Positions 10,893 through 22,451 of a stretch of 23,191 nt of DNA are shown here, piece after piece. The position numbers were made by a program, and so were the translations under genes. The notes under the pieces are model-generated. The model saw only the letters and a list, made by a program, of their open reading frames with translations. It had not been told where the DNA came from and did not search any database. The stretch covers positions 1 through 23,191 of IMG/VR virus record IMGVR_UViG_3300047474_000384. The stretch is one strand, 5' to 3'. Source of the DNA: a virus. Each line of letters begins with the position of its first letter. The first letter of the stretch is position 1.

Positions 10893-11723
10893 ATGAATAA
10901 AAAAACACTATCTCTTATAAACTCCACCGTCCTCGAAGCCTTAGAATCCGGGGTGAATCCATGGCGTAAGACTTGGAGGAACATTCACGATCACGGGATG
11001 CCCCATAATCTAAAGAGTAAACGCAATTACTCCGGCGCAAACGTAGTTATCTTGGGGTTACAGGAGGCCCCGTGTAACGCTTGGGTGACTTATAAACAGG
11101 CTGTTGAGCTAGGCGGAAACGTGCGCAAAGGGGCGAAAAGCTCTGTTGTGTATTTCTGGCAATTTTTAGAGAAAGAGGAGGATGGGGTGAAACGGAAAAT
11201 CCCCATGGTGCGCACTTATAGGGTCTTTAATGCATCGCGTGACTGCGATGGATTAGAGCACCTGATTGAGAAGGCGAAAGGCGAAGTAGGGGAATCCCGC
11301 CCCGTTAACGCTCTTGCGGATTATATTGAAAGGGAAGGCATCGGACTGTCCCATGGCACGAATCAACCCTGCTACGTGCCCATCGTTGACCAAATACAGA
11401 TGCCGCACGAATCGGCCTTTGATAATCCCGACCACTATCAGGGTGTCTTGGCCCATGAGGCGATCCATTCCACGGGGCACGAGTCGCGGCTAGGGCGATT
11501 AAAAGAAAGGGCAGCGTTCGGCGGGGAGAATTACGCATTCGAGGAACTAGTTGCGGAACTTGGATCGTGCTATGTTTGCGCCCAAGTTGGAGTTGAGCCG
11601 GACTTTGATAATTCTGCTTCCTACCTTAAGTCATGGTTGACCGCACTGAAAGACAATGACTCTTGGCTAGTATCGGCTGGCGGGAAAGCCCAAAAGGCAG
11701 CGGATTTCATCTTTTCCGCCTAG
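10893..11723 (+). CDS. ardC: ArdC-type antirestriction protein
   Basis: This encodes 276 residues. Residues 1-130 match the ArdC N-terminal ssDNA-binding domain (NPWRKTW at 22-28, RNYSGAN at 44-50, AWVTYKQAVELGG near 63-75, GAKSSVVYFWQF at 80-91). Residues 140-276 form a zincin-like domain with HEAIHSTGH at 188-196 and a downstream YAFEELVAELG carrying E217, E218 and E222. On plasmids ArdC protects incoming single-stranded DNA from restriction. In a phage it may act early against host defence, which fits its place as first gene of the rightward side. AGGGG sits very close to the ATG. An intrinsic terminator follows 28 bp after the stop, so it may be a separate transcription unit. Confidence 0.88.
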   Translation: MNKKTLSLINSTVLEALESGVNPWRKTWRNIHDHGMPHNLKSKRNYSGANVVILGLQEAPCNAWVTYKQAVELGGNVRKGAKSSVVYFWQFLEKEEDGVKRKIPMVRTYRVFNASRDCDGLEHLIEKAKGEVGESRPVNALADYIEREGIGLSHGTNQPCYVPIVDQIQMPHESAFDNPDHYQGVLAHEAIHSTGHESRLGRLKERAAFGGENYAFEELVAELGSCYVCAQVGVEPDFDNSASYLKSWLTALKDNDSWLVSAGGKAQKAADFIFSA

Positions 11724-11983: not shown

Positions 11984-12613
11984 ATGAGAAAACCAAACCC
12001 AAACCGCGCCCTTACGAAAAACATTTCCGCTATGCTCCAACTTGCCAGCGTTGCCGATATTCAAGACGGAATCGAGTGGTACGATCGAGCCGGTCGGCTT
12101 GGCCAACGTCTCGCCGAAACTTACGGGTGCACGATAGAACAATCGGTAGGAGTGATTGCGGCCCTGAGCCCGAATAACAAGTGGCAGCGCAATTGCCAAG
12201 ACGCGGAATCCTGCATTAAGGCGTGGTCACTCGGACGGGACGTAATGGACATCGTCTGCTGCACGTATCCCGCCATGAAGGAAAAGGCCAAACGGATTCT
12301 TGAGCTTAACGCACCCTCACGGGAGGATGTTGCGGCGATACTCAACGGACGTAAAATCTCCGCGTTTGCTCTGTCGATCCTGGGCGAAGCTTCCGCCGTC
12401 TGCGTCGATGGCCACGCATTTGCCATATGGCTGGGCGAGCGAGTTCCGACCACCAAAACGCCAAGCCTCGGCAAAAAGCTTTACTCCCGAATATCAGCCG
12501 ATTATTGCACCGTCGCAAAGCGTTCGAAGGCGATTTGCGGCCACGATTTAACCGCCGCGCAAGTTCAAGCCGTGACCTGGGTAACTTACCGCCGTATTTC
12601 CGGCATTAAATAA
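11984..12613 (+). CDS. HhH-GPD-like (endonuclease III-like) DNA glycosylase candidate
   Basis: This encodes 209 residues. VIAALSPNNKWQRNCQDAE (57-75) parallels the LLSAQATD...VNKA segment of endonuclease III. MKEKAKRIL (98-106) parallels its yntKA-I motif. NGRKISAFALSILGE (121-135) followed by VCVDGHAF (139-146) parallels GVGRKTANVVLN...VDTH. K124 and D142 would occupy the positions of the catalytic Lys and Asp. If so, it could excise a base and possibly cut the abasic site. The C-terminal iron-sulphur cluster of endonuclease III is absent. The family is also seen in phages as an uncharacterised protein. The alignment is by eye, so the fold is inferred, not proven. AAGGA lies nine bases before ATG. 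Confidence 0.55.
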   Translation: MRKPNPNRALTKNISAMLQLASVADIQDGIEWYDRAGRLGQRLAETYGCTIEQSVGVIAALSPNNKWQRNCQDAESCIKAWSLGRDVMDIVCCTYPAMKEKAKRILELNAPSREDVAAILNGRKISAFALSILGEASAVCVDGHAFAIWLGERVPTTKTPSLGKKLYSRISADYCTVAKRSKAICGHDLTAAQVQAVTWVTYRRISGIK

Positions 12614-18963: not shown

Positions 18964-19344
18964 ATGGCAAGAGTAGCCAGAACACGCAACGGAGGCAAAT
19001 GGACGGAAAGCCAATACTGGTCAGCCATTCGTTCCGCCCTCCGTTCTAAGTTCCGCTACTGGACCCCCGCCACACAAGCCCTGAAAGCCGCCGAACGGCC
19101 CTCTAAATCCAAGAACAAACGTCTCAAATACGAATATCAATGCGCTAAATGCAAGAAGTGGTTCAAGCGTGCCGATGTGCAAATTGATCACATCATCCCA
19201 TGCGGGAGCTTGAAATGCGCAGACGATATTCCAGCTTTCTTAGAGAGACTAACCCCAGAGGATTCGGCGACTTTTCAGGTTTTGTGCAAGAAGGATCACC
19301 AGAAAAAATCTGACAAAGAAAAACAACAGAGAGCGACAAAATGA
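18964..19344 (+). CDS. HNH endonuclease
   Basis: This encodes 126 residues. A basic N-terminal 55 residues precede CAKC (60-63). The HNH core is VQIDHIIPCGS with D75 and H76, a helical insert, and VLCKKDHQKKS with C108 and H112. The CxxC and C-x3-H sites hold structural zinc. Free-standing HNH genes of this type in phages are often homing endonucleases, though some assist packaging. It begins the block leading to the glycosyltransferase and overlaps the next gene by ATGA. Confidence 0.88.
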   Translation: MARVARTRNGGKWTESQYWSAIRSALRSKFRYWTPATQALKAAERPSKSKNKRLKYEYQCAKCKKWFKRADVQIDHIIPCGSLKCADDIPAFLERLTPEDSATFQVLCKKDHQKKSDKEKQQRATK

Positions 19345-19604
19345 GCCACCAACACCCAGATTGCGATATGCTCTTGCTGGACGATAGGCCAACGCAGCAA
19401 GAATACCTGTGGGCCGGTATGCCTGAATTTCAACAAGAGGAGCAGGAACCATACGCAAAAATAATTTTCCGATTTGAAAACGAAAAAGACTTGCAAGATT
19501 TTGCCAACAAGATAGGTCAAAGCCTTACGCCTCGCACAAAAAGCTCTTGGCATCCGTTCAAGCCGCACCGAAGGGACACCAAAGAAGTTTGGGTTGCTGA
19601 ATGA
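19341..19604 (+). CDS. Small conserved-type protein paired with the glycosyltransferase
   Basis: This encodes 87 residues. The segment EYLWAGMPEFQQEEQEPYAK, then IIFRFENEKDLQDFANKIGQ and LTPRTKSSWHPF, is a pattern I recall from many phages next to glycosyltransferase or ParB-like genes. It has no assigned activity. It has an alpha/beta layout without catalytic motif. Its TGA overlaps the glycosyltransferase ATG, so the two are probably made together. Confidence 0.75.
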   Translation: MSHQHPDCDMLLLDDRPTQQEYLWAGMPEFQQEEQEPYAKIIFRFENEKDLQDFANKIGQSLTPRTKSSWHPFKPHRRDTKEVWVAE

Positions 19605-20443
19605 AATATCCCGTGTATATCATTTCAAAAGGCAGGTCGCAATGCTGCATTACTGCGAGAGCACTTGATCGAATGGGTGTGCGATACACTGTTGTTGTTG
19701 AGCCGCAGGAAATATCTGACTACGCAAAAACAATCGACGAGCGTTGCTTAGTTTCCCTTCCATTTTCTAATTTGGGGCAGGGCTCCATACCTGCTAGAAA
19801 TTGGGTGTGGAGCGATAGCCTAAAAAAAGGATTCCGTAGGCATTGGATACTAGACGACAATATAGAAGCGTTCAACCGGCTTCACATGAATGACAAGCTG
19901 GAAGTTAGGTGCGATGCGACATTCAGGGCGTGCGAAGACTTCACAGACAGGTTTGATAATGTCGGCCTATCTGGAATGAACTATTATTCGTTCTGCAAGT
20001 CAACTGACGCTGTGCCCCCATATTACCTAAACACGCGCATTTACTCTTGCATCTTGATTCGGAATGACCTGCCTTTCCGTTGGCGCGGAAAGTATAACGA
20101 GGACACCGATCTGTCTATTAGGGTTCTAAAGTCAGGAGAATGCACCATACTTTTCAATGCGTTCCTTTGCGGTAAAGTTACATCAATGAGGATGCGAGGG
20201 GGTAATACTGATTCTATATATTCGGAAACGAATAATAGGCTGGAGTTTGCAGAATCCTTAGTGCGCCAACACCCCGACGTTGCGCGAGTAACGAAGAAGT
20301 TTGGGCGGTGGCACCACCACGTAAACTACAAGCCATTTAAGCGAAACCGTCTAAAACTTGTTCGCGGGTTCAAAATGCCAAATGGCTACGATAACTACGG
20401 CATGGTGAAGGCCGTAATTCCGCCAACGCACGCAGCGGCTTGA
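19601..20443 (+). CDS. TET-associated-type glycosyltransferase (TAGT), probable DNA base modifier
   Basis: This encodes 280 residues. Recognised segments are YPVYIISKGR at 3-12, YTVVVEPQE at 29-37, LGQGSIPARNWVW at 58-70, HWILDDNIEAF at 81-91 with a DD metal/nucleotide-sugar motif (D85, D86), LNTRIYSCILIRN at 143-155, and RGKYNEDTDLSIRVLK at 162-177. GRWHHHVNYKPF (236-247) ends the core. This is the GT-A-type TAGT family, whose phage members are thought to attach sugars to hydroxylated bases in DNA. No TET/JBP dioxygenase or hydroxymethylase is visible here, so the acceptor is unknown. HNH genes flank the pair it forms with the 87-residue gene. Confidence 0.85.
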   Translation: MKYPVYIISKGRSQCCITARALDRMGVRYTVVVEPQEISDYAKTIDERCLVSLPFSNLGQGSIPARNWVWSDSLKKGFRRHWILDDNIEAFNRLHMNDKLEVRCDATFRACEDFTDRFDNVGLSGMNYYSFCKSTDAVPPYYLNTRIYSCILIRNDLPFRWRGKYNEDTDLSIRVLKSGECTILFNAFLCGKVTSMRMRGGNTDSIYSETNNRLEFAESLVRQHPDVARVTKKFGRWHHHVNYKPFKRNRLKLVRGFKMPNGYDNYGMVKAVIPPTHAAA

Positions 20444-20460
20444 CATTTGCAGGAAATAAT

Positions 20461-20727
20461 GTGAAAAAGACTCCCTTACGCCGCATCAGCAAGAAGCAAC
20501 AGGAACGACTACGCACCTACTACCCCCTCCGCAAGCAATACCTCAAAGACCACCCCACCTGCGACCTGTGCGACAACGCCGCCACCGACATTCACCACAC
20601 TAAGAAACCAAGAGCCACCTACCTAAACGCCGTAGAGACATGGATGGGACTGTGCCGCATTTGCCATTCGCGAATAGAGAATGACAAGGCATGGGCCAGG
20701 GAGAACGGCTACCTAGAAAGCATTTAA
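20461..20727 (+). CDS. HNH endonuclease, small
   Basis: This encodes 88 residues from GTG 20461, preceded by AGGA at six bases. A TTG at 20440 would overlap the glycosyltransferase and lacks an SD. The core is CDLC (34-37), ATDIHHTKKP with H45 and H46, and MGLCRICHSRIE with C65, C68 and H69. It is a compact zinc-stabilised HNH fold like those of phage and mobile-element nucleases. Its position directly behind the glycosyltransferase makes it a candidate for moving that module. Confidence 0.85.
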   Translation: MKKTPLRRISKKQQERLRTYYPLRKQYLKDHPTCDLCDNAATDIHHTKKPRATYLNAVETWMGLCRICHSRIENDKAWARENGYLESI

Positions 20728-21186: not shown

Positions 21187-21915
21187 ATGACAATGACGGA
21201 CGAACAAATTGCGGCGAAAATACCCGTTGGGCATTACCGAGTGGATGAAGGCGAATACAAGGAGGGAGATCTGGCAGTATTCACCACGGCATCTAAATTG
21301 GGGTTCAGCCCTGTTTCCTACACCCATGTGGGTTGCAAGATTTGTGCCCCGTATGTAGTAGCCCGTCCCATGAAGGGCTACAAGCCAGACCCCACCACCG
21401 TTAAGGGGTGGCTAGAAACACTCCCTGACGGCTATCGAGAGCGCGCGATCAGTCAGGGTGATAAAAATTGGCTGGACGATATGTGCGGGAATCTTTCGGA
21501 CGCCATTCATGATTTCCAAGAATGGGACACCACGGAGGAGGGTGCAGATTTCTGGGAGAAGATGGCTCAGTGGTCTATTGATCGCGAAGGACTGCCCCCG
21601 CTACCGGAACAAGAACCGCTGAACCCCGCAAGCGACACTCCCTCCCTGTTCCCCACAGGCGCAGAAGCACGCAAGGAATACCCCGTAGGCACGTTCATTC
21701 GTGACTATTTCCCCCACGCTATTGCGGCCCTAGCCCACCACAGCTACAAGGCGCAGCAACAGCATGGACCGGCCACCAATGGAGCCCCTATGGAATGGCT
21801 GAAGGACAAGAGCGTTGGCGACGGCAATCAAATGATGCGTCATTTCATGGAGCGCGACAACGTAGCTACGGCTTGGCGAGCATTAGAAATCCTTGAACGG
21901 GAGCTGACGAAATGA
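21187..21915 (+). CDS. Protein with C-terminal dATP/dGTP diphosphohydrolase-like domain
   Basis: This encodes 242 residues. Residues 1-150 are unassigned, with acidic and Trp-rich segments (GDKNWLDDMCGNLSDAIHDF). Residues 165-242 read YFPHAIAALAHHSYKAQQQH, then GAPMEWLKDKSVGDGNQMMR, HFMERDN and ATAWRALEILERELTK. This resembles the all-alpha phage dATP/dGTP diphosphohydrolase-like (MazG-related) domain with its W-x-K-S, M-R-H and A-W-R-L-E-E pattern. Such enzymes trim specific dNTPs, sometimes in phages with altered bases. The activity is inferred from partial pattern memory. Confidence 0.55.
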   Translation: MTMTDEQIAAKIPVGHYRVDEGEYKEGDLAVFTTASKLGFSPVSYTHVGCKICAPYVVARPMKGYKPDPTTVKGWLETLPDGYRERAISQGDKNWLDDMCGNLSDAIHDFQEWDTTEEGADFWEKMAQWSIDREGLPPLPEQEPLNPASDTPSLFPTGAEARKEYPVGTFIRDYFPHAIAALAHHSYKAQQQHGPATNGAPMEWLKDKSVGDGNQMMRHFMERDNVATAWRALEILERELTK

Positions 21916-22097
21916 AAATCACTATTGAGTCAACCACGCGGCACACGGTTTCCAGCAGAACCGCCTCTGTTTCTACTGACTACGACGACGTATTAGCAGA
22001 GGATCTAGTTGTGCTTCTCCGACAAGTGTGCCTTGGTTATGGGTATGAGCCTTTCACCGTAAACGAAATGTTCTTTGATGAAACCAACAACGAGTAA
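21912..22097 (+). CDS. Small protein of unknown function
   Basis: This encodes 61 residues, Thr/Ser-rich at the start (MKITIESTTRHTVSSRTASV) and acidic later (DDVLAEDLVVLLRQ). ATGA overlap with the previous gene and GGGAG nine bases upstream support it. It overlaps the next ORF by 20 bases. Confidence 0.65.
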   Translation: MKITIESTTRHTVSSRTASVSTDYDDVLAEDLVVLLRQVCLGYGYEPFTVNEMFFDETNNE

Positions 22098-22236
22098 TAC
22101 ATTCTCCGTAGCAACGGCCATCCTCCTACTGCTGTCCATCGTTCTCATAATGGTGCAGCGTTCCGAAGAGGGGCTAGTGATGCTTGGGGCTGGCATTCTG
22201 TGTTCTGCGTTTGCGGCCATCACCCACCACCAATGA
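22078..22236 (+). CDS. Small two-span membrane protein (holin-like candidate)
   Basis: This encodes 52 residues. Two hydrophobic segments (VATAILLLLSIVLIMV and VMLGAGILCSAFAAI) are joined by a charged turn QRSEEGL. Length and topology would suit a tiny holin or a membrane anchor, but no lysis enzyme is present in this window. ATGA overlap with the next gene supports translation. Confidence 0.6.
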   Translation: MKPTTSNTFSVATAILLLLSIVLIMVQRSEEGLVMLGAGILCSAFAAITHHQ

Positions 22237-22439
22237 CACATAACGTTCCACGAACATACGAAGCCCTTGAGCAACTGGCTAAGACCAAGAGCATGCAAGG
22301 CATGAGGATTCGTATGTTTGAAGAGGGAGGATACTGGCACTGGCAATGGTGCGTAAGCGGCATTCCTGGCATTATTGATTCTGGCAGCGTAAATGCGCCC
22401 AAGCCTATAGCCTTCGCTATGGCTGTGCGCTTCATCTAA
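22233..22439 (+). CDS. Small protein of unknown function
   Basis: This encodes 68 residues from ATG 22233, which overlaps the membrane-protein stop; a longer in-frame start at 22200 is disfavoured. It has a helical start (YEALEQLAKTKSMQG) and Trp/Gly-rich strands (MFEEGGYWHWQWCVSG, IPGIIDSGS). No family is recognised. Confidence 0.65.
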   Translation: MTHNVPRTYEALEQLAKTKSMQGMRIRMFEEGGYWHWQWCVSGIPGIIDSGSVNAPKPIAFAMAVRFI

Positions 22440-22451
22440 ACAGCAAGCAAC

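Follow-up and report, generated by a model that had tools for sequence, protein, structure and literature searches.

Glycosyltransferases of the TAGT family are already known, and its solitary members have been flagged in the literature. The TAGT of phage T6, the beta-glucosyl-HMC-alpha-glucosyltransferase of T2/T6, is a DNA-glucose glucosyltransferase (PMC13216743, PMC13390438), and the TAGT of Nonlabens/Persicivirga phage P12024L adjoins genes for a TET/JBP oxygenase and a methyltransferase. Among 753 GT-encoding phage genomes, 288 had a solitary TAGT, accompanied by neither T4-type glucosyltransferase, for which no explanation was given (PMC13216743), and the glucosyl transferase of Aeromonas phage Aeh1 has been listed as a presumed DNA modifier whose base is unknown (PMC8056088). 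Here, we analyzed a TAGT locus in the full IMG/VR virus record IMGVR_UViG_3300047474_000384, a phage contig of 23,191 bp that is itself a genome fragment and is referred to below as the window. The locus contains the following features:

18964..19344, plus strand, HNH1, an HNH endonuclease-like protein of 126 aa (PHROG 1985, E = 1e-21)
~19304..20460 (or to ~20472), no strand, inserted or replaced segment, delimited by blastn and sequence comparison with the sister contigs L088-L094
19341..19604, plus strand, small partner protein of 87 aa, conserved beside or fused to TAGT
19601..20443, plus strand, TAGT GT-A glycosyltransferase of 280 aa (Pfam PF20691, E = 4.6e-46)
20461..20727, plus strand, HNH2, an HNH-like protein of 88 aa counted from GTG 20461 (PHROG 740, E = 1.4e-7)

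HNH1 and the small ORF, as well as the small ORF and TAGT, are joined by ATGA overlaps. In Pfam, HNH1 and HNH2 were below threshold or had no match. The true start of HNH2 is probably GTG 20461 rather than TTG 20440 of the mechanical ORF, since the ATG of the sister gene aligns there and an AGGA is located upstream. Elsewhere in the window, 10893-11723 encodes an ArdC-type anti-restriction protein (PF08401 and PF18818), a second likely anti-restriction gene of this phage, and 11984-12613 encodes a DUF7178 protein (E = 1e-44) that is conserved in phages (PHROG 3842).

A reading made from the sequence alone (the sequence-only reading) had described a TAGT protein with all recognized family segments, and this was borne out by the Pfam search, in which ORF 19601-20443 covered positions 1-205 of the 205 positions of the PF20691 profile with a score of 157.8 bits (cut-off 27.5). 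The PHROG match was PHROG 842, beta-glucosyl-HMC-alpha-glucosyltransferase. Comparison with four relatives gave pS values of 0.83-0.95 and pN values of 0.11-0.20, indicating strong purifying selection, and an alignment of 60 sequences showed that DDN (85-87) and NEDTD (166-170) are invariant. DDN is the probable metal-binding motif and NEDTD holds the probable catalytic Glu/Asp; from the structural model, the catalytic machinery looks intact. This AlphaFold2 model (pLDDT 89.5) has a GT-A fold, and the nearest predicted structures are viral TAGTs. A search of 84,980 bacterial species genomes for close TAGT homologues returned only 4 loci, on short MAG contigs.

When the TAGT model was compared with solved chains using VIA-align, Z-scores of ~12-14.2 were obtained with rmsd values of 3.0-4.3 over 189-222 aligned residues. 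The nearest chains included polypeptide GalNAc-transferases (Z 14.2, rmsd 4.1, 218 residues aligned for one of these), GnT-I, and chondroitin polymerase, and DNA glycosyltransferases were absent from the VIA-align list. In a separate comparison, collagen galactosyltransferases were among the best structural matches. Glycosyltransferases of proteins and polysaccharides thus make up the nearest solved folds, which does not favor DNA as the substrate, although the GT-A similarity is generic to the superfamily and uninformative on the acceptor. An enzyme acting on a host or phage protein, a tRNA or a surface component, in host takeover or superinfection exclusion, would agree with the polypeptide GalNAc-transferases and collagen galactosyltransferases among the best structural matches, with TAGT contigs that carry no known hydroxylase, and with the nucleotide-sugar epimerase found near TAGT in some loci. 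However, TAGT shares a Pfam family with the T6 DNA enzyme, and two unrelated groups of phages, described below, have a Mom or an ABC-GNAT gene as its alternative. Both points speak against such a target, and we regard it as unlikely, though not far-fetched. The epimerases are NAD-dependent nucleotide-sugar epimerase/dehydratase genes present near TAGT in 10 loci (for example L025:11196, L038:11117, L051:11199, and L059:11083), all assigned to the general family only, with none reaching an equivalog cut-off, and they may supply an unusual donor sugar.

The 87-aa protein encoded directly upstream of TAGT shows the pattern W-x-G-MPEF-x-QE ... TKS-x-W-x-P and is a conserved protein, likewise under purifying selection. 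At threshold, it could be assigned to no family in Pfam, PHROG or NCBIfam, a PHROG scan of 43 small proteins gave scattered weak matches only, and its structural model, of moderate confidence (pLDDT 75.8), had no Foldseek match in the PDB. Most of 80 viral loci contain a homologue, either beside TAGT or as part of the same protein. With the small protein as query, a search biased to close versions so that distant ones without TAGT are possible, TAGT was present in 78 of the 79 loci retrieved, and the remaining contig ends directly after the small protein. Fusions of the two occur in the cultured phages Aeh1, 65, phiAS5, avDM6, PTm1, Kuja, POP12, 1.076.O, and 1.124.O, and the pairwise distances of partner and TAGT are correlated (Mantel r = 0.53, 0/2000 permutations). 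The partner protein is thus a near-obligate companion of TAGT. Vibrio phage Kuja (L120, 3581-6269) contains two tandem TAGT genes, each with an N-terminal domain of the small type. Several loci also encode a related protein of ~250-276 aa directly before TAGT, between TAGT and the small gene (L004:1957-2712, L014:9249-10004, L030:6379-7209, and L070:9196-9996). The L030 member has methyltransferase-family matches, below cut-offs only, and these proteins possibly add an extra modification step.

Four sister contigs (3300044512_000484, 3300044723_008366, 3300044724_001301, and 3300023109_000118) lack TAGT and the 87-aa ORF at this locus, with flanks that are mostly 95-98% identical to the window (blastn). 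In place of the window segment from 19304 they carry ~44 bp, and HNH1 (90-92% identical) and HNH2 (94-95% identical) abut with an ATGA overlap. The last ~20 codons of HNH1 differ between the window and the sisters, which fits the expected recombination junction, and no TAGT was found elsewhere in the contig in the three sisters searched. The empty site in four near-identical sisters therefore indicates that the pair is a ~1.1-kb insertion, and that the HNH genes are resident rather than cargo. In L002, L003, and L005, phages otherwise unrelated to the window at the DNA level, the small ORF and TAGT are the only stretch detectable by blastn (~73% identical), which, together with the empty sites, argues that both genes move as one unit. 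Judged from these comparisons, the small ORF and TAGT are a two-gene cassette that entered a phage already holding the HNH genes.

The sequence-only reading had proposed that the pair could move as a cassette, as suggested by the HNH genes on both sides, and had named a comparison of related phages as a check. That comparison yielded the four empty sites and upholds the mobility of the pair, but the HNH genes do not serve as its markers, and including them in the cassette was rejected, since they stand side by side in TAGT-free sisters. A single mobile element that unites the TAGT pair with HNH1 and HNH2, spread by HNH homing, would be in keeping with the landing of TAGT and Mom at the two ends of HNH2, and with the direct repeat of the HNH2 end that flanks Mom. 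Yet the HNH pair is intact without any cargo in sister L093, the genes that follow HNH1 relatives elsewhere are unrelated and include no TAGT, and in the other phage records searched no PF01844 HNH gene neighbored TAGT, so this explanation is very improbable and already largely refuted. Further indels relative to the sisters are present in the window at 21187-22450, where 21393-21643 is missing in L088 and 21936-22221 in L093.

Three sisters carry an inserted gene for Mom (223 aa; PF25680, E = 2.8e-41) immediately downstream of HNH2, bordered by a direct repeat, 34 bp long and 82% identical, of the HNH2 3' end, and the fourth sister contains neither Mom nor TAGT. At L094:1498-2278, the 34-bp imperfect direct repeats around the Mom gene form an insertion footprint. 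A comparable exchange is seen in Aeromonas phages, where the flanks of the Aeh1 TAGT are 73-87% identical to PX29 genes, and in PX29 (L218:5854-7029) the exact position of the Aeh1 TAGT is taken by an ABC-ATPase/GNAT fusion. The literature assigns DNA modification to both Mom and ABC-GNAT, in the case of ABC-GNAT as a prediction (PMC7824862, PMC8056088). Iyer et al. 2013 is reportedly the source of these DNA-modification predictions. Thus, in two independent lineages, TAGT is exchanged for genes of DNA modification, and this exchange is the main new argument for DNA as the target. It is weakened by the fact that ABC-GNAT is itself a predicted DNA modifier, and that Mom and TAGT are on opposite sides of HNH2, so that their slots are not exactly the same.

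An anti-restriction DNA-glycosylation cassette is, on balance, the best and a fairly probable reading of the pair. Aside from the exchanges, it draws on the PF20691 family that the window TAGT shares with the T6 DNA enzyme, on the linkage or fusion of the partner and its correlated divergence, on the ArdC-type anti-restriction protein that this phage encodes elsewhere, and on the nameable neighbors of TAGT, which in a sampled census included DNA polymerase, DnaB, ERF, SSB-type, and nuclease genes, most neighbors being unnamed. We infer from this the DNA target, the anti-restriction role, and the role of the partner. In the proposed scheme, the partner and TAGT would have been acquired as a cassette at a variable site beside the resident HNH genes of the phage. 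The GT-A enzyme would move a sugar from a nucleotide-sugar donor onto replicated phage DNA, the partner might assist by positioning, folding or substrate recognition, and the glycosylated DNA would be hidden from host restriction enzymes. Related phages would use Mom (the sisters) or ABC-ATPase/GNAT (PX29) as interchangeable alternatives.

A difficulty for this DNA-glycosylation reading is that a hydroxylated acceptor is unaccounted for. The sequence-only reading had found no hydroxylating enzyme in the window and left the acceptor base open, and both statements were upheld. A Pfam scan of the 20 window ORFs detected neither a TET/JBP gene nor a thymidylate-synthase-like one. PF00303 (thymidylate synthase/hydroxymethylase) was absent from all 35 TAGT viral contigs and from the sisters, and PF12851 (TET/JBP) was absent from the same contigs and sisters as well as from 10 cultured clade relatives, and was found only in P12024L. 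The 35 contigs range from 18.8 to 334 kb and many are fragments, so the longer ones, several of them >70 kb, carry the weight. Among 50 records, T6 was the only match both for T6 gp42 (dCMP hydroxymethylase) as query and for PF11440 (T4-type alpha-glucosyltransferase), and the controls were positive, with TET recovered from P12024L, and gp42 and AGT from T6. Eight large cultured TAGT phages had PF00303 matches, at the family level only, and none matched gp42, and two cultured Vibrio phages of 47 kb also lacked PF00303. In the gene lists of Petrov et al. (PMC2993671), gene 42 is recorded solely for phages other than Aeh1 and 65, which are also noted to lack gene 56. A TET route via 5-methylcytosine was rejected, as a C5-methylase (PF00145) is present in just 1 of the 35 TAGT contigs, with a weak match in phage 1.124.O. 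Sister 3300044512_000484 spans ~13.2 kb from the right end of the window round to its left end, from which a genome of ~36.4 kb can be estimated, and the part beyond the window contained no gene of the PF00303 or PF12851 type. By these searches, which for the phage itself cover the 23,191 bp of the window, lacking a known hydroxylase characterizes the TAGT clade and is not a gap of the window.

How the acceptor arises can be explained in two ways. In the first, which narrows the DNA reading, the base that receives the sugar from TAGT is hydroxylated, and the hydroxyl is supplied by an unrecognized enzyme family of the phage or the host, or by a gene outside the window. In the literature found, characterized DNA glycosyltransferases act on hydroxylated bases or on sugars that the base already carries (PMC13390438, PMC13216743), the TET-type relative in P12024L adjoins a TET/JBP gene, and some of the thymidylate-synthase-family genes in the large cultured TAGT phages could be hydroxymethylases. 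The absence of PF00303 and PF12851 from the 35 contigs, the near absence of C5-methylase, and the two Vibrio phages without PF00303 speak against it, and since the two-gene unit occurs in unrelated phages, any required enzyme would have to be a host function or very diverse. We consider this explanation quite possible, if somewhat short of probable. In the second, partner and TAGT are self-sufficient, either placing the sugar onto the nucleobase without prior hydroxylation, or with the partner making or presenting the acceptor. This is rather improbable, but if true, hydroxylation-independent DNA glycosylation would be a chemistry not described in the literature found, and spread across very diverse phages.

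Relative to what has been described, this analysis adds an unnamed partner protein specific to the TAGT clade, the lack of known hydroxylase families across many TAGT contigs, empty sites that demonstrate an insertion, and the replacement of the module by other DNA-modification genes in each of two unrelated groups of phages. Of these, the partner and the swapping of the cassette are new as far as searched. The T6 enzyme is, like the window TAGT, a phage-encoded GT-A protein (PMC13216743) of family PF20691 (E = 1e-8 for T6) that adjoins replication genes, whereas their pairwise sequence similarity is not significant, its 261 aa are too short for a fused partner domain, and T6 has a dCMP hydroxymethylase next door and an alpha-glucosyltransferase, both of which the window clade lacks. 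The TET-associated TAGT of P12024L belongs to the same family with detectable homology (hhalign 98.7%), but it has no small partner, and the window TAGT has no TET/JBP neighbor. Genes for Mu Mom and ABC-ATPase-GNAT are found, in related phages, at the variable locus that corresponds to that of the TAGT pair, although these acyl-transfer-type enzymes are proteins unrelated to TAGT. The same clade also contains TAGTs of cultured phages that are 44-54% identical to that of the window, from Aeromonas phages Aeh1, 65, and phiAS5, Tenacibaculum phage PTm1, Pectobacterium phage POP12, and Vibrio phages henriette 12B8, 1.076.O, 1.124.O, and Kuja. The module is carried by phages in culture (Aeh1, 65, phiAS5, and Vibrio phages), with the small domain adjacent or, in most, fused at the N-terminus of one protein, whereas the window encodes it as two ATGA-coupled genes.
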